Assembly: GCA_030158485.1 (NCBI GenBank)
Contig: JAOASS010000008.1
Span: 1-48,530 of the forward strand
DNA from: Pseudobdellovibrionaceae bacterium
GTDB taxonomy: Bacteria > Bdellovibrionota > Bdellovibrionia > Bdellovibrionales > Bdellovibrionaceae
DNA: 48,530 bases
Direction: 5' to 3'
Part shown: positions 40,967 to 48,530 of the stretch, piece after piece
Numbering within the stretch: the first letter of the stretch is position 1
How the letters are laid out: every line of letters begins with the position of its first letter
The notes under the pieces: model-generated
What the model was told of the DNA's origin: nothing
What the model saw: only the letters and a program-made list of their open reading frames with translations
Databases searched by the model: none
Translations under genes and position numbers: made by a program

Positions 40967-42217
40967 TTAAAAGGCTTTTGATTCTTCGGACAATCGATTC
41001 CAATAATTCAGATAGGAATTAAAAGTTTTAAGATCGTTGATTTTAAAAAGTGTTTCGTCATTGGTTCTAAGTGAAGTTGTGTTGAGATTATGCGACCCTG
41101 TCAAAACTAGGGTTTCTTTCTTTTTCATTCCATCCATTCGAGCATTGATCAAAATCACTTTTGAATGGATAGAATTGTTGGCTTTAATTTCGCCGTCTTT
41201 ACCTTTGTAAGGAAGTATTGCTAGATTTCGACCCAAATGTGAAACAACTTGTCGACCTGGCGAATCCTGATCGGGTTCGTCACGTACAATCACTTTTAGA
41301 TCACAACCTTGGTCAGATAAATCAGCCAGAAGCTTTGCTAAATAGGACCTGCCATCATCAAATCGGGATTGAATCACACGAATTTTCGAACCTGGCAGAT
41401 CACAACGAACTTGTTCGAGAATTTTTTGAACAGGATCAGATCCTAACAAACGTGGAAAAAAATAAGACTTCAATCCTTTTTGACCATCGAGTGTTTCAGT
41501 TTTCTTTAAATTAAAAGAATCTTTTTTTAATTTTTTCCAGTAATTCATCATGCCATCATAAAAGGGCTTGTCGTTTTTGATCACAACAAGATCGTTATAG
41601 TTTTTCAATTGCCCTTCCGTCAAATTGGCAGAGGTTTGGGCCACAATGTATTCTGAAATTTTATTTTGTCCTGAAACTTTTAAGCTTTGCTTAAGTTTTG
41701 AAAAAAGAAAAAACTTGTTATGGTTAATCCAAAGTCCCGTGCAAGAGCCCTTGCAAAATGTGATGCAGCTTTTTTTTCCACATTTTAAACCCGGAAGCCC
41801 TTGCGCTCCGTTGACTAAAATATTCAGTGCCGCTCCCACTTTTTTTACTTGATCTAAGTTTTTATCGTCCATCACCAGTTCGATAGAAGCACCCCGAGCT
41901 TGAGCTTCAAGCATCGCCATCGCGACCGGCACGCGACTGAAAGTGTAAAGACTGACGTTGATTTTCGTGGACTCATCTGCTTGTTGAAAAAGTTGAATGA
42001 TTTGATCTTCTAATAGAGTTGACGAGTCACCGCCAAAACCAGGAGTATTAAAATAAGTTTCAATTTCCTGAAGACTTGATAATGATGGTTCTGGGGTACT
42101 TTCAGTCATTGATTGAATGTCTTCGCGCACACCAAATTCCTGAGCTTTTAAAAACTGAGTCTGCAGAAAAAGAAGGGAAAATAAAAAAATGAATCTTTTG
42201 AATTTAAAAAATGGCAT
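40967..42217 (-). CDS. Exported phospholipase D-fold protein
   Basis: 416 residues with a signal peptide (cleavage near LKAQ at 25). Two HxK motifs mark the two halves of a PLD fold: HNK at 166-168 and HSK at 351-353, the second followed by TGSHNLN and NDE. The first half has a small insert with cysteines at 146, 151, 155 and 159, probably disulfide-bonded. Such exported PLD proteins can be phospholipases or nucleases; which one is not readable. It has its own candidate promoter at 42270-42275, 66 bases after the DUF1501 gene. Confidence 0.85.
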   Translation of the reverse strand: MPFFKFKRFIFLFSLLFLQTQFLKAQEFGVREDIQSMTESTPEPSLSSLQEIETYFNTPGFGGDSSTLLEDQIIQLFQQADESTKINVSLYTFSRVPVAMAMLEAQARGASIELVMDDKNLDQVKKVGAALNILVNGAQGLPGLKCGKKSCITFCKGSCTGLWINHNKFFLFSKLKQSLKVSGQNKISEYIVAQTSANLTEGQLKNYNDLVVIKNDKPFYDGMMNYWKKLKKDSFNLKKTETLDGQKGLKSYFFPRLLGSDPVQKILEQVRCDLPGSKIRVIQSRFDDGRSYLAKLLADLSDQGCDLKVIVRDEPDQDSPGRQVVSHLGRNLAILPYKGKDGEIKANNSIHSKVILINARMDGMKKKETLVLTGSHNLNTTSLRTNDETLFKINDLKTFNSYLNYWNRLSEESKAF

Positions 42218-42283: not shown

Positions 42284-43546
42284 TCAAGTTTTAAGCACCT
42301 GCTTAAGCGAACTGATTTTTTTTAAATTTCCGCCCATCAAATTAATATTAAGACCCATGGCATCCGACACGGTCCTGATAACATTCTGGGGCGTAATTGG
42401 AATTCCGGATCCGATCTCACTTCGTTTTTCAATGACTTGGTTTTTTTCAAGGTTCAGATGAAGCCCCGTTAAATAAGGAATTCCAATTGCAGAAATATTT
42501 CTTTCAATAATTTGACTTCCACCTTGCACCACTTGTCCCTTAATTCCTCGTCCTGCTAGCAAAGCAGAATTAGCCCAAGGATTATGATCCTTTCCACGAG
42601 CCGGATTTAAAGCCGGAGTTCTTGAAAATTCTGAAGTGATCATAAAAGTTGTCATATCAAAAAGTGACTTTCCATTTTTATACTCAATTGATTTAAAGAG
42701 ATTGAACAGGTTGTTCACAGATGCCCAACCTTTTGCTTGCTCTTCCAGATGTCTTCCTGGGTGATTATCATGAGTATCCAGATTCATCACAGGAGCTAAA
42801 ACTGCAGTCCGAGCCAGGCCTGTTTTAAATGCAGCTGCCATCAAACCTATTTCATTGTCTTGGGAAGAAGAACCCATTTGCGATAAGTACTGATTCATTA
42901 AAGTTTGAGCTGAATGAAGCTTAGATTCAAGCACGTTGGCTTCTTTTACTTTCTGTAAAATGCCAGACTTCGCATTTTTGATAAAAGTATGAGATGAAAA
43001 ATCACTTTTCGAATTTAAAGCTTCCAGAGCCGAATTGAAATTTGTTGTCTGATTAGGCCGCTCGCCTATTGGAATGGGATTTGATGTTAAAACAGAAAAA
43101 AATGATTTCGGAAGTGTCAAATCTAATTCTAAATTCAAAGCTGCTCGGTGATTAAGAACATCACCGGTCAAAGCGTAATCACGTAAACTTTCGTGACCAT
43201 TATCATTTGTACTCATCATAATTCCGTTAATAACACTGATATCATTTAAGTGCGGAGTCATTGCTTTCATCGCAGGCCCTAAAGCACTGGAACCCCAATT
43301 GATAAGGTCACTGGGACTGTATTCAAGAAAATAATCTGATTCCAGTGGACGTTTTGACTTAATCCAAGGATCTAAAGATAAAGAAATATCCCAGGCTCCT
43401 TCAAATATAACCGTCACAAAAAAGCCTTCCCAGTCATCATGGCCCCAAGTCGTTTGATTTTGAAAAGTTTGGGCCATCGAGCGCTGGCCAGACGCCAGCA
43501 GCAGAGCTTGTAAACTAAATAATTCTAAAAAATCACGTCTTTTCAT
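42284..43546 (-). CDS. DUF1501-family exported protein with Tat-type signal
   Basis: 420 residues. The start MKRRDFLELF matches the twin-arginine motif RRxFL, with a hydrophobic segment ending SMAQ at 26. The body has DUF1501 landmarks: VINGI followed by DNGHESLRDYALTG, a conserved DTHDNH-like segment, TSEFSRTPALN and KDHNPWANSALLAGRGIKG. DUF1501 proteins have an alkaline-phosphatase/sulfatase-like fold and are often paired with cytochrome-type DUF1592/DUF1588 proteins, as here. GAGG lies five to six bases before the ATG. The catalytic activity of the family is not established to my knowledge. Confidence 0.85.
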   Translation of the reverse strand: MKRRDFLELFSLQALLLASGQRSMAQTFQNQTTWGHDDWEGFFVTVIFEGAWDISLSLDPWIKSKRPLESDYFLEYSPSDLINWGSSALGPAMKAMTPHLNDISVINGIMMSTNDNGHESLRDYALTGDVLNHRAALNLELDLTLPKSFFSVLTSNPIPIGERPNQTTNFNSALEALNSKSDFSSHTFIKNAKSGILQKVKEANVLESKLHSAQTLMNQYLSQMGSSSQDNEIGLMAAAFKTGLARTAVLAPVMNLDTHDNHPGRHLEEQAKGWASVNNLFNLFKSIEYKNGKSLFDMTTFMITSEFSRTPALNPARGKDHNPWANSALLAGRGIKGQVVQGGSQIIERNISAIGIPYLTGLHLNLEKNQVIEKRSEIGSGIPITPQNVIRTVSDAMGLNINLMGGNLKKISSLKQVLKT

Positions 43547-43565
43547 AAATCCTCACGATCGTGGC

Positions 43566-44297
43566 TTAGTAAGATAAAAATTCATCTCGAATAATCAGAT
43601 TCTTGAGAACCCAAATTGTGTAATCGTATAAATTCATTGATTTCTTTTGATTCATTAAGGCTAACTCCGCAATGTAATCAGAAGCAATTTGTTCCGCAGA
43701 TGCGGCTACTCCAAATTCCTGAATAACGACATTCGGACCTAACATATAATGAACTAAATGAACTGTGTGCTCAAAAATTTTGGGATCATTTGCGAGAACA
43801 GGAACGCCTCTGATTTTATATCCTTCAGAAATGATTTGCTTTTTAAAATAAGGGAAAAGCCGATTTAAAGTATCCCTTGCTAAACCTGCAGGACTTGATA
43901 GGTCACTTTCAATCACGAAATCAAAAGAGGGATCTAAAGTCAAAAGCTCGATTTCTGATTTGATTAAATTTCCCCCGCACTTTAAAAGCTGGTTGACTGT
44001 GTTGATATCAGGCTGACTGGATTCTGCTTCACCGGTCACGGGTGAAATAATTCCGTAAACTTGAAAAGGATGTTTTGATTCATCTTGGAATGGTCGAAAG
44101 CATTGTTTTATATCTGGCATATCATATTGATTAAAACCTTTTTCAAGTGAATATGAATAGAAGGGGCGGTATCCGTTCGGAAAAAGAAGAATCAGTTTAT
44201 TATAAAAATCCCCGGGCATCAGGTAGCGCTTCGATGTGTTTTCAAAAGAAGCTTGGGCTTGAAATGAGATCAGAAGAATCAGTAAAAATAATTTCAT
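43566..44297 (-). CDS. Uncharacterised exported protein in the redox cassette
   Basis: 243 residues with a signal peptide (MKLFLLILLISFQAQA, cleavage about 16). The mature part is mixed helix/strand with two cysteines (KQCF, KCGG) and many aromatic residues. I do not recognise it. It overlaps the two-haem protein gene by 4 bases and lies 19 bases before the DUF1501 gene, so it is almost certainly cotranscribed and may be a partner of both. Confidence 0.75.
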   Translation of the reverse strand: MKLFLLILLISFQAQASFENTSKRYLMPGDFYNKLILLFPNGYRPFYSYSLEKGFNQYDMPDIKQCFRPFQDESKHPFQVYGIISPVTGEAESSQPDINTVNQLLKCGGNLIKSEIELLTLDPSFDFVIESDLSSPAGLARDTLNRLFPYFKKQIISEGYKIRGVPVLANDPKIFEHTVHLVHYMLGPNVVIQEFGVAASAEQIASDYIAELALMNQKKSMNLYDYTIWVLKNLIIRDEFLSY

Positions 44298-45766
44298 GGC
44301 CTTACCTGCTTTTTTGATTCTAAACTAATCCAAGTTTTAATCAGTGCTAATTCATCACGGGTTAAATTCCAATTTGACTTGGCCGGCGGCATGCTTCTGT
44401 CACGTCCACCATTTTTTAAATCGAGTTTTTCAGAAACTCGGTCCAGCCAAAATCCAGTATTTTTTTCTGATTCATGATTTTTTCCCAATGGCCAAACGGC
44501 CAAATTAAGAAGAGCTTCCCCCGTCACTTCATCCGCTTGACCTTCGTGACAAGACTGACATTTTTTAAAAAGGTTATAAACTTGTCGGTTGATTTTTTGT
44601 TCAGGATTTTCCACAAGTCGATTTTTAAATTCAGACCGTTTCACAAGATGACGAACAAAGTCATTTGGCTTTCGTCCGACTTCATTAAATTTTTGACTTA
44701 ATTCGCTTAAAACTTCACTTGAAAGTGGAATGTCGTTTCCAATAAACCAGCCCCAGAAATGCCTCACTTGGCAGGTGACGTAATCTTCTTGTTGAGTAAT
44801 CGCTTTTCCTAATTCACGAATATTTTGAACTTTTATAGAGATATCTTCATTTTTTGAATTTTTGTAAGCCAAGGCCCCTGGCCACTGAAACTTGGAAAGA
44901 ATAGTCCTCGAACCCAAAAAAACATTTCCCATGGGATCAAGCTTGTCATGACAGGATTTGCAATCCGCCAAAGAACCATGACTGTCGTCTTGCATGATGG
45001 CTCTAATTTCAGCTTCCGTAAAACTTTCTTGTTTTGCTTTCGGGTATTGAATTTCAACTATACGAGACTTGTTTTCAGATGGGTCCGGAACAGCTGCCAT
45101 CATATTATCACATAAAAAGTTTTTAAATATTGCAGCCGCGCGCCTTCTGTTTTTATTAATCGCTGTGGTCGCATATCTTTCAAAAAAACGAGGAGTCGTT
45201 AAAACACCCGCAACACGCCCGTCAGCATCTGAAAACTCCAGTGGAACGGAGTACTTGTTATTTTTTTCCAGTATTGATTTTTTAGTTTCCAAGTCCATAA
45301 CAAATTCGTAGAATTTTGAATCCGTGATTCCAAAATATTCCTGATCTGCAGTAAACACTTTGTAACTGCCTGAAGTCAGCAAAGAGTCCCAACTTTTGTT
45401 TTGACGAATTAACTGTGTTAAAAATTCATCCGTCGAATTGTCCCGATCCTTAGACGGACTTTCGTTATAAGCAAGCTCTTCCCGACTGGCTAAAAAGGCC
45501 GTATTGCTTGATTTGAGTTTCAACATTTCAACAATTCGGGACCGCATTTTGTCAGCATAAACAGGGTTTGATAAGTATTCAGTTATTTTTCCATTTAAAT
45601 AACTTTCTGTTTGATTTCTTTCCCGCGCGATATTGAGTTCTGAATATTCTAACGAAGTGGGGGAATGTCCTTTTAGGGCTTGGGATAGGCGGTTCAAATA
45701 ACCTTCATCCGAAAGCTGGGCGTGCGAAATTAACGGTACTAAAAAACAAAGAATATATTTTTTCAT
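44294..45766 (-). CDS. Exported two-haem cytochrome-like protein, DUF1592/DUF1588 type
   Basis: 490 residues with a signal peptide ending SHAQ at 17. GVLTTPRFF with RRRAAAIFKNFLC (about 187-219) resembles DUF1592, and CKSCHDKLDPMG (269-280) is the DUF1588 haem site. CQVRHFWGWFIGND near 332-345 resembles DUF1585. A second CxxCH (CQSCH, 403-407) is followed by SMPPAK near 468, giving a likely Met axial ligand as in class I cytochromes c. Two covalently bound haems are expected in the periplasm. Overlaps both neighbours by 4 bases. Confidence 0.85.
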   Translation of the reverse strand: MKKYILCFLVPLISHAQLSDEGYLNRLSQALKGHSPTSLEYSELNIARERNQTESYLNGKITEYLSNPVYADKMRSRIVEMLKLKSSNTAFLASREELAYNESPSKDRDNSTDEFLTQLIRQNKSWDSLLTSGSYKVFTADQEYFGITDSKFYEFVMDLETKKSILEKNNKYSVPLEFSDADGRVAGVLTTPRFFERYATTAINKNRRRAAAIFKNFLCDNMMAAVPDPSENKSRIVEIQYPKAKQESFTEAEIRAIMQDDSHGSLADCKSCHDKLDPMGNVFLGSRTILSKFQWPGALAYKNSKNEDISIKVQNIRELGKAITQQEDYVTCQVRHFWGWFIGNDIPLSSEVLSELSQKFNEVGRKPNDFVRHLVKRSEFKNRLVENPEQKINRQVYNLFKKCQSCHEGQADEVTGEALLNLAVWPLGKNHESEKNTGFWLDRVSEKLDLKNGGRDRSMPPAKSNWNLTRDELALIKTWISLESKKQVRP

Positions 45767-46737
45767 TCTAAAATCTCATTTGCAATCATCATTTCAACTT
45801 GCCGAACTTTCATTTGAATCGTTTTTTGGTTGATTAAAAATCCAGACCACTCGATAGGTTTTAGTTTTTTGGGATTCAGTGAATTTACGTCAATAGTAGA
45901 TTGAATTTGGACCAATTGACTGTTGTTAACAGAAAAACTCACTTCACAAAATTGATTATCTGCAGACTGGGTTACCCAATGTAAGTTCTGGCCCAAAAGA
46001 AGAGGAATAAATCCCATAAGATTTCCAATTGATTCAAGACTGTAGGTTCCACTTTTTTCATGGAAGATGACATCTTCCATCATTTGAAAACTCCTATTTT
46101 CATTTCCTCCGGTTTCGTTGTTACTAAAACTAATTTCGCCTGCCATAGTGTAAACTTTAAGTTCCTTTTTATGAGTCGACACCAGCGGCTTTAAGAAATC
46201 TTTTAAATCACAAGTCATTTTCCACTTTTCATTTTCTGTCACAGCTTGATTTTTATAAGTCGTTAGTTCATAAGAAATATCAGAATTTAAAAACACGTCT
46301 TCAGCCTTAGAAAAAGTCTTCTGACCGTTTGAATCAACTTGAATAACATATCGTCTTTTAACAACTTGACCGATTTTTTGCGGTTGATCTGGATACTGGG
46401 TCCAAACAAGAGCACCTACTTGTGATCTTGTCGGAATTTCAATGGAACAAGTCACGGCGGTTTTTTGCAATGGACAGTTTGTTTCAGTTGGAACCAGTTT
46501 GACAACAGGTTTTTGGGAATCAAATTCTTCTGCTAAAAACTGAGCTTCACGGCCATCTGAAAACTTCAAAATAGCATGTAGTGGCGTTTTCCATATCGCT
46601 TCTAAAGTCAGTTTTTTTTCTGGGTTTTTTTGTGAGTTTAAATTTGAAGTCGCTTCTTCAGATGCAAAAACAGAGTTTGCTAAAAATAGACCTAGAAATA
46701 AGAGTTTCAAACTGATTTTCAAAAAACACCTCTCCAA
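45763..46737 (-). CDS. Uncharacterised exported protein
   Basis: 324 residues with a signal peptide (hydrophobic core about 10-22, SVFA). The rest is predicted mostly beta, with few cysteines (two in a CPLQKTAVTC pair) and no haem motif. I do not recognise a family. It overlaps the two-haem gene by 4 bases and follows the b562-like gene by 17 bases, so it belongs to the same transcription unit. Confidence 0.75.
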   Translation of the reverse strand: MERCFLKISLKLLFLGLFLANSVFASEEATSNLNSQKNPEKKLTLEAIWKTPLHAILKFSDGREAQFLAEEFDSQKPVVKLVPTETNCPLQKTAVTCSIEIPTRSQVGALVWTQYPDQPQKIGQVVKRRYVIQVDSNGQKTFSKAEDVFLNSDISYELTTYKNQAVTENEKWKMTCDLKDFLKPLVSTHKKELKVYTMAGEISFSNNETGGNENRSFQMMEDVIFHEKSGTYSLESIGNLMGFIPLLLGQNLHWVTQSADNQFCEVSFSVNNSQLVQIQSTIDVNSLNPKKLKPIEWSGFLINQKTIQMKVRQVEMMIANEILE

Positions 46738-46754
46738 ATATGATTGTGATGAGA

Positions 46755-47159
46755 CTATTCGGGGCGAAACATTTCATGAGATTGAGTGCGCAACTGATCC
46801 ATTTTAACAAAAATTACTTTCGCAGCGTCCAAACGCTCAGTGGCGATTTCGATCGACAACTGCTGTGATAATTCAATCATTTGTTCCATATACTGTTTAT
46901 AAAGTCTGACTTCATCAGCCGTGATCGGTCTCACGTCCCCGTTATGAGGCGTGTACTCAGGAACCTCTGCACGAATTTTAACAAAAGCTTGAGCCAAGGA
47001 AACGGCTGCACTTTTCGTGTTAGAATCAATTTTATTTTTTCTGAGATCCGTCACAATCACTTTAAAAGCGGGATTGATTTCTTTTTTCATCGTCGCTTTG
47101 ATATCCGCAAAAGCGAAAGAATAGAGGAACACAAATAATGTTAAAGTTGTCATTTTCAT
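46755..47159 (-). CDS. Cytochrome b562-like exported four-helix protein
   Basis: I place the start at the ATG at 47159, which has GAGG seven bases upstream; the frame from 47216 adds 19 residues without support. The 134-residue precursor has a signal peptide (cleavage about AFA-18). The mature part is all-helical. Met24 in ATMKKEINPAFKVI and His128 in QLRTQSHEMFR occupy the positions of the haem ligands Met7 and His102 in cytochrome b562, with a comparable helix 3-4 spacing. No CxxCH, so haem would be non-covalent. Adjacent to a two-haem protein, it may pass electrons. Confidence 0.7.
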   Translation of the reverse strand: MKMTTLTLFVFLYSFAFADIKATMKKEINPAFKVIVTDLRKNKIDSNTKSAAVSLAQAFVKIRAEVPEYTPHNGDVRPITADEVRLYKQYMEQMIELSQQLSIEIATERLDAAKVIFVKMDQLRTQSHEMFRPE

Positions 47160-47302: not shown

Positions 47303-48530
47303 CTAGGGCGGAAGCCAGAGGTCGGCTCCCGTGGTGCCGTCGAGCGCGGTAAATCCGCCACGTGCAGTTTGTTGATTTCCGATAACTGTGAACTGTCCAG
47401 CAGCGTAAATAATGGAGCCACTCACTGAAAGGGCATGAACTATACCATTTACATTCGGGTTCCACGCTGTCGCAATTCCTGTCGTCGCATCAAGAGCCGC
47501 AATTCGGTTTCTGGTTTGCCCACCTACGCTTGTGAACTGACCACTAGCGTAAACAATGGAACCACTCACTGAAAGGGCATGAACTATACCATTTACATTC
47601 GGGTTCCACGCTGTCGCAATTCCTGTCGTCGCATCCAGGGCCGTAATATAATTTCTTGTTTGACTACCAACGCTTATAAACTGACCACCGGCGTAAACAA
47701 TGGAACCACTCACCGCAAGGTCACTAACTAGGCTGTTTGCGTTCGGGTTCCAGGTTGTAGCAATTCCTGTTGTCGCATCCAACGCCGCTATATAATTTCT
47801 TGTTTGACCACCAATGCTTGTAAACTGACCACCGGCGTAAACAATGGAACCACTCACCGCAAGACCTTGAACTGTGTTACTTGCATTCGGGTTCCAGGCT
47901 GTGGCACTTCCCGTTGTCGTATCAAATGCTGCTATCCCATTTCTTATTTGACCACCAATGCTTGTAAAACTCCCTCCTGCGTAAACTGTCGAACCACTTA
48001 AGGCAAGGACATAGACGATGTTGTTTGCGTTGGGGTTCCAGGCTGTCGCAATTCCTGTCGTCGCATCAAGAGCCGCTATATAGTTTCTTGTTTGACCACC
48101 AATGCTTGTGAAACTCCCACCTGCGTAGACCGTGGAACCGCTCAGCGAAAGGGCATAAACTAAGCTATTTGCGTTCGGGTTCCAGGTTGTCGCAATTCCT
48201 GTCGTCGCATCTAGCGCCGCTATATAATTTCTTGTTTGACCACCTAAGCTTGTGAAACCCCCACCTGCGTAGACCGTGGTACCGCTCAACGAAAGGGCAT
48301 AAACTAAGCTATTTGCATTTGGGTTCCAGGCTGTGGGACTTCCTGTTGTTGCATCAAGAGCCGCAATTCGGTTTCTTGTTTGACCGCCAACGCTTGTAAA
48401 AACCCCACCTACGTAAACAGTCGAACCACTTAAGGCAAGGGCATAGACGTTGTTATTTGCGTTCGGGTTCCAGGTTGTGGGACTTCCTGTCGTTGCATCA
48501 AGAGCCGCAATATAATTTCTTGTTTGTCCA
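47303..48530 (-). CDS. Repeat surface protein of beta-propeller type, 5' truncated by window end
   Basis: The frame is open from the TAG at 47303-47305 to the window end, so the gene starts outside; the apparent Met at 48289 is an in-frame TTG within a repeat. The protein consists of 48-residue repeats with the consensus elements VYAGG-x-FTS-x-GGQTRN-x-IAALD-x-TTG and TAWNPN. These read as blades of a beta-propeller (compare delta-60-type repeats). The C-terminus ends GFTALDGTTGADLWLPP. It is probably secreted or cell-surface and binds an unknown partner. Upstream domains cannot be seen. Confidence 0.82.
   Translation of the reverse strand, partial: GQTRNYIAALDATTGSPTTWNPNANNNVYALALSGSTVYVGGVFTSVGGQTRNRIAALDATTGSPTAWNPNANSLVYALSLSGTTVYAGGGFTSLGGQTRNYIAALDATTGIATTWNPNANSLVYALSLSGSTVYAGGSFTSIGGQTRNYIAALDATTGIATAWNPNANNIVYVLALSGSTVYAGGSFTSIGGQIRNGIAAFDTTTGSATAWNPNASNTVQGLAVSGSIVYAGGQFTSIGGQTRNYIAALDATTGIATTWNPNANSLVSDLAVSGSIVYAGGQFISVGSQTRNYITALDATTGIATAWNPNVNGIVHALSVSGSIVYASGQFTSVGGQTRNRIAALDATTGIATAWNPNVNGIVHALSVSGSIIYAAGQFTVIGNQQTARGGFTALDGTTGADLWLPP
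47331..48530 (-). repeat. Tandem 144-bp coding repeats, at least eight copies
   Basis: The landmark GGGTTCCA occurs at 47457, 47601, 47745, 47889, 48033, 48177, 48321 and 48465, exactly 144 bases apart. Each unit encodes one 48-residue repeat. The two copies nearest the 3' end share an identical stretch of about 80 bases around 47420-47500 and 47564-47644, indicating recent homogenisation. Confidence 0.95.

Follow-up and report, generated by a model that had tools for sequence, protein, structure and literature searches.

Which of five neighbouring genes for exported proteins form a single system in a member of the Bdellovibrionota, and what might that system do? The DNA concerned, 48,530 nucleotides long and called the window below, is the whole of one contig (C8, GenBank JAOASS010000008.1) of a Pseudobdellovibrionaceae bacterium, whose genome amounts to 2.48 Mb in 23 contigs. 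A gene for a b562-like protein is followed there by four genes, called A, B, C and D here, among which B encodes a di-haem protein and D a protein of the DUF1501 family. All five had been taken for one exported redox cassette in a first-pass annotation made from the sequence. The comparisons described below show that A-B-C-D is a conserved, co-inherited four-gene unit in Bdellovibrionota, and that the b562-like gene accompanies it only locally, without being conserved as part of the cassette.

The cassette was followed in two samples: 66 genomes of the family, which were searched with B and in which 20 neighbourhoods were then read, and 340 genomes of the phylum, which were searched with profiles, a match to B with E below 1e-40 being counted as strong. 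Of the phylum genomes, 21 contain A, 28 contain C and 29 contain a strong B. The genomes carrying A all carry B as well (21/21), and those carrying C have a strong B in 27 of the 28 cases, the remaining one (G200) having a diverged, fused B. The hypergeometric p values, calculated with relatedness ignored, are about 1e-27 for A with B and 1e-36 for C with B. D adjoins B or B-C at all the 30 loci, the window included, where the contig reaches far enough. Chance is a remote explanation of the arrangement, since A-B-C-D is also found, amid unrelated surroundings, outside the genus, the family and the class of the genome studied here. Of the five-gene order put forward in the first-pass annotation, the four genes A-B-C-D do co-occur in relatives, but the b562-like gene is not linked to them. 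A was undetected in G058-G060, G200, G208 and at the second locus of G308. At L091, in a genome of the same class, the order is permuted to B-C-D-A, A having moved behind D; a YceI-like gene (L091:1396-2001), belonging to a family that binds polyisoprenoids or quinones, lies directly upstream of B at this locus.

Some clades that unite members of different genera or families are common to the trees of B and D. The clade of G277 (family f2), L059, G046 and G048 (family f1) has a support of 100/100 in both trees, that of G027 (genus g5), G032 (g1) and G061 and G062 (g19) has 93/91 in the B tree and 99/99 in the D tree, and G007 (g4) and G035 (g10) also form a clade common to both. G032, a congener of the genome studied here, is placed away from the window. 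Since these common clades do not follow the taxonomy, transfer or differential loss must have struck B and D jointly. A wider scan of contigs with an alignment gave 10 loci, each in a metagenome-assembled genome either of Bdellovibrio type or deltaproteobacterial, the named records being almost exclusively of Bdellovibrio type, and the same scan with a single protein query gave none. No relatives of B or D were found on viral contigs, and plasmids yielded only a Vibrio DUF1501 protein and a Photobacterium DUF1588-like fragment. As far as we could search, the cassette is undescribed: no description of A-B-C-D was found in the literature, most subscription papers lying outside this search. A and C define two new protein families.

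Coordinates of the five genes and their two neighbours in the window
Feature	Position	Strand	Product or remark
b562-like gene	46755-47159	minus	134 amino acids; 17 bases upstream of A
Gene A	45763-46737	minus	324 amino acids, TTG start; exported, no known family
Gene B	44294-45766	minus	490 amino acids; exported di-haem c-type protein
Gene C	43566-44297	minus	243 amino acids; exported, no Pfam family
Gene D	42284-43546	minus	420 amino acids; twin-arginine (Tat)-exported DUF1501 protein, predicted alkaline-phosphatase-superfamily fold
PLD-like gene	40967-42217	minus	phospholipase-D-like exported protein; 66 bases downstream of D
DUF5122-type gene	47303-48529		beta-propeller repeat protein, incomplete (runs past the contig end); directly upstream of the b562-like gene

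The compact layout and the export of all five products, both noted in the first-pass annotation, were borne out. A and B, as well as B and C, overlap by 4 bases, and gaps of 17 and 19 bases separate the b562-like gene from A and C from D, respectively. The export signals, which were judged by eye, are of the Sec type in four of the N-termini, whereas that of D is a twin-arginine signal (RRxFL), both arginines of which are invariant in the 23 orthologues; the genome also encodes TatC and a cytochrome c assembly protein. A scan for promoters and terminators gave sites no commoner than in shuffled sequences. Relatives of the PLD-like gene behind D are absent near all the other cassettes whose neighbourhoods were read.

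The b562-like protein matches the Pfam model Cytochrom_B562 below threshold (2e-4, 22.2 bits versus a cut-off of 30), and a search of solved structures by sequence returned only unrelated chains. Since the axial Met near the N-terminus and the His near the C-terminus are kept in the window protein and in its relatives, the protein probably does bind haem, and its gene could be co-transcribed with A-B-C-D here. The two conserved ligands, together with the short gap and the strand shared with A, are also what might be expected of a dedicated electron carrier belonging to a five-gene cassette. The distribution of the gene makes such a role quite unlikely, however: b562-type genes are present in 19 of the 66 family genomes but lacking in most of those with a cassette, and in the other genomes holding both (G035, G046, G048 and G062) the b562 gene is on another contig in four cases out of four. 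The adjacency was seen in this window only, no b562 gene standing beside the other cassettes read. A five-gene cassette including b562 was therefore rejected, and the earlier idea that a b562 carrier supplies electrons to an enzyme of the envelope can hold at most for a local arrangement. The congener G033 was left outside this linkage count, its contig ending inside the b562 gene. The surroundings of this gene (L136:5212-5640, contig C9), which include GTPase and 6-carboxytetrahydropterin-synthase-like genes, resemble the flank of the cassette of G027.

The central haem protein of the conserved unit is B. The Pfam models matching it are DUF1588 (8e-9, above the cut-off), cytochrome c (2.5e-4) and, below threshold at the N-terminus, DUF1549; those of DUF1592 and DUF1585 do not fire, and DUF1587/1595 are undetectable in it. 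In profile comparisons with hhalign, residues 16-384 of B align on the DUF1592-DUF1588-DUF1585 part of canonical PSD proteins (probability 97.5, E 7e-12, 322 columns), and the order of the domains is a DUF1592-like region, DUF1588 with the motif CKSCH, a DUF1585-like region and a cytochrome c domain with CQSCH and, further on, MPP. Judging from these alignments, B is a diverged DUF1592-DUF1588-DUF1585 protein with its cytochrome at the opposite end from usual. The label DUF1592/1588 it had first been given was right in kind, DUF1588 being found by Pfam and DUF1592 by hhalign, but did not capture this rearranged form. As had been anticipated, the haem ligands are conserved: C269, C272 and H273 of the first CxxCH motif, C403, C406 and H407 of the second, and M459, the axial methionine of the C-terminal cytochrome, are invariant in 30 out of 30 B sequences. 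The same is true of Cys219 and Cys332. Of the 30 sequences, 26 also have His263, which precedes the first CxxCH by six residues. No solved relatives of B were found by sequence search; the profile of its C-terminal cytochrome gave a weak, generic match to cytochrome c555 (2e-4) among solved structures.

C matches nothing in Pfam or NCBIfam, the latter being uninformative for the other proteins too. It is either a separate gene after B or fused to B on the C-terminal side of its cytochrome (at L040, L043, L044-L046, L087 and L088), which is the position occupied by DUF1587-DUF1595 after the cytochrome of canonical proteins. Two cysteines are well conserved in C, that at position 66 in 18 sequences out of 18 and that at position 107 in 17 out of 18. 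When the profile of C was compared with the DUF1587-DUF1595 region, P was 0.014 in local and 0.016 in global (end-to-end) mode, versus 0.1-0.9 in the controls, which were five control regions and reversed profiles; no signal was obtained with the DUF1592 and DUF1588-1585 regions. These comparisons are suggestive of a circularly rearranged PSD protein made up of B and C, in which C would be the missing DUF1587-DUF1595 part.

A, which likewise has no Pfam or NCBIfam match, shows an F-x-D-G-R-E-A motif near the N-terminus and, in most orthologues, four cysteines in the mature protein. Since Cys97 and Cys176 vanish together (in 5 out of 25 sequences: L058, L086, L087, L089 and L093), whereas Cys88 and Cys264 are always present, we infer a two-disulfide protein with the pairs 88-264 and 97-176. 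The AlphaFold model of A is beta-rich, with a mean predicted local distance difference test score (pLDDT) of 64.7, too low to assign a fold from it, and Foldseek found nothing similar to it at E below 0.001. The fold of Bartonella IalB was among the best VIA-align matches (Z 6.2) and was rejected, this value being within the background range. The co-varying cysteine pairs of A, the two cysteines of C and the lipoprotein-type signal present on B in some relatives (L089, L093 and L054) might also suit an assembly or protein-quality unit, in which A, B and C would help the Tat substrate D to fold, to be anchored or to reach its destination, and the haems would be structural. We hold this to be very unlikely: the conserved His/Met ligation of the cytochrome points to electron transfer instead, and DUF1501 proteins have been described elsewhere with DUF1800, A and C being unmentioned (PMC5122149).

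The Pfam match of D to DUF1501 (PF07394; 3e-12, 46.8 bits versus a cut-off of 27) spans only 52 of the 390 model positions. Its AlphaFold model (pLDDT 86.8, predicted template modelling score 0.86) was aligned by VIA-align with the nucleotide pyrophosphatase/phosphodiesterase (NPP) of Xanthomonas, 7mw8, over 244 residues at 3.1 A (Z 19.6, about 10% identity), and with 492 chains in all at Z 8 or more; Foldseek gave a probability of 1.00 to several members of the alkaline phosphatase superfamily. The nearest folds are those of NPPs, which match best, and of sulfatases and phosphoethanolamine transferases, and D is, on the strength of this model, a protein of the alkaline-phosphatase-superfamily fold. 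No solved relatives were found by sequence search. Among 23 sequences, Asp53, His118, Asp257, His259, His266, Arg309 and His321 are invariant. The enzymes of this superfamily have their nucleophile in the segment that would match that before His118 of D, as well as a metal-binding Asp-His motif; residues 104-118 of D include no conserved Ser, Thr or Cys, and SEF takes the place of the usual DH when the residues are mapped by motif order. D thus seems to be devoid of the usual nucleophile. It is homologous to DUF1552 according to hhalign (probability 96, E 4e-9); with B akin to DUF1592-1588-1585, each of the two partners thus has a relative in the canonical PSD/DUF1552 pair. The lineage of G058-G060 (L044-L046), in which B and C are fused, A is lacking and Asp320 of D is replaced (GTAHN/GTGHN), provides a natural variant for assessing the importance of residues.

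D might be an ordinary metal-dependent hydrolase or a phospho- or sulfo-transferase, which the haem protein would only regulate, anchor or protect; its fold, nearest to those of NPPs, sulfatases and phosphoethanolamine transferases, and its invariant cluster of Asp and His residues are in line with this idea, but the segment before His118 and the SEF in place of Asp-His, on the mapping adopted here, are not, and haem sites that are never lost from B would be odd in a mere anchor, which makes this reading unlikely. The interpretation we prefer, tentatively and at slightly less than even confidence, is that A-B-C-D is a periplasmic or outer-membrane redox enzyme in which a cytochrome of the planctomycete type and a partner with the alkaline phosphatase fold occur in a rearranged, four-gene form. 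In this redox enzyme, D would fold in the cytoplasm around one or more metals, be exported by the Tat route and dock on B/C, and the substrate would be bound at its metal cluster. Since D has apparently lost its nucleophile and the two haems of B never vary, the bound substrate would more likely be oxidised or reduced than simply hydrolysed at an ester bond. Electrons may then move from the haem of DUF1588 to the cytochrome domain of B with its His/Met ligation, which would hand them to a carrier in the periplasm; in this strain the b562-like protein encoded next door might be that carrier. B and C together would rebuild the usual single PSD protein, and A would be an accessory subunit in the envelope. 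As to the substrate, our guess is a glycan, a lipid or a phospho- or sulfo-ester part of the envelope or of the prey. The more specific proposal that, in a di-haem oxidoreductase, a nucleophile-less D holds the metal site at which the substrate binds, with B and C as a split and permuted PSD protein and A as a new subunit, is a doubtful one in our estimation.

Several points tell against the redox enzyme. The loss of the nucleophile is deduced from the position of motifs and not from superposed coordinates, and sequence profiles of D and of NPP enzymes gave no usable alignment. The identity of C with DUF1587-1595 is only suggestive, and the site in D is not strictly kept everywhere, the G058-G060 lineage being without A and without Asp320. 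The literature, in a search that most subscription papers lay outside, gave no activity or biochemical assignment for DUF1501, DUF1552, DUF1588, DUF1592 or DUF1800, which agrees with the earlier remark that pairs of DUF1501 and cytochrome-type DUF1588 proteins have no settled function. The notion of an exported redox cassette, combining a haem protein, a phosphatase-fold DUF1501 protein and two proteins of unknown type, was supported as far as A-B-C-D are concerned.

Among the known systems, the cassette resembles the PSCyt3/PSD proteins encoded next to DUF1552 in that a haem protein is adjacent to a Tat-exported partner. The canonical proteins show the order cytochrome c-DUF1587-DUF1595-DUF1592-DUF1588-DUF1585, some of them being without the cytochrome, whereas B has the cytochrome at its C-terminus and no DUF1587/1595 that could be detected, C is a separate gene, A is additional and the partner is DUF1501 instead of DUF1552. 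The phylum also contains canonical PSD/DUF1552 pairs, one of them in a genome that bears the cassette as well (L129 of G007), and canonical DUF1592 proteins are expanded in two genomes of genus g26 in the same order, G200 (16 matches) and G205 (8 matches). With the PSCyt2 (DUF1549/DUF1553) or DUF1800 proteins encoded near DUF1501 in Planctomycetes, Verrucomicrobia and proteobacteria, the cassette has the DUF1501 partner in common, and B has a weak DUF1549 match at its N-terminus; unlike them, B carries DUF1588, and A and C have not been described with those pairs. DUF1800 is absent from the genome studied here. DUF1501 and DUF1800 have been reported to be co-located, together with bacterial chitin synthases and a Tat motif (PMC5122149), and PSCyt genes have been found beside two unknown families, a role in carbohydrate metabolism being suggested (PMC5615132). 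With the NPP branch of the alkaline phosphatase superfamily D shares the fold and the invariant Asp and His residues, the apparent difference, on the mapping by motif order, lying in the lack of a conserved Ser, Thr or Cys at the expected place and in SEF for DH.

A further parallel is provided by Cbp2D of Cellvibrio japonicus, which consists of a YceI-like X158 domain, an X183 cytochrome, DUF1587 and X132, and the isolated cytochrome domain of which passes electrons to lytic polysaccharide monooxygenases (LPMOs) (PMC8981238). Since this isolated domain does so, an electron-transfer role is supported for the cytochrome/DUF1587 architecture. By analogy, the cassette might donate electrons to LPMOs, as proposed for Cbp2D: the cytochrome and DUF1587 in one chain (PMC8981238) recall the cytochrome and C in the B-C fusions, and a YceI-like gene adjoins B at L091. 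Cbp2D differs, however, in being a single large secreted protein tied to LPMOs, with a carbohydrate-binding module, none being seen in the cassette proteins by Pfam, and a DUF1501 partner is unmentioned in the accessible part of its description. The AA10 family (PF03067), the only LPMO family searched for, was found in 2 of the 66 family genomes, none of them bearing the cassette. The role of LPMO donor is highly improbable on these grounds, and since AA10 LPMOs are absent from the cassette genomes of the family, the acceptor or substrate must differ from that of Cbp2D.

Planctomycetes and Verrucomicrobia have numerous copies of PSCyt/PSD proteins and of DUF1501/DUF1552 proteins, Rhodopirellula having 41 copies of each of two domains of these kinds (PMC2754498), and dozens of copies hinder their study. 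In the genome analyzed here the DUF1501 family has one member and Pfam detects no DUF1592 protein, so that with a four-gene unit and a single DUF1501 protein, one deletion would test the function. Natural controls are available in genus g4, where the cassette is present in three of the 24 species sampled (G007, G016 and G018) and not in the other 21. If D does prove to be the metal site of a di-haem oxidoreductase, this would be the first biochemical reading for the widespread group in which DUF1501 or DUF1552 proteins accompany PSCyt, PSD or DUF1800 proteins.

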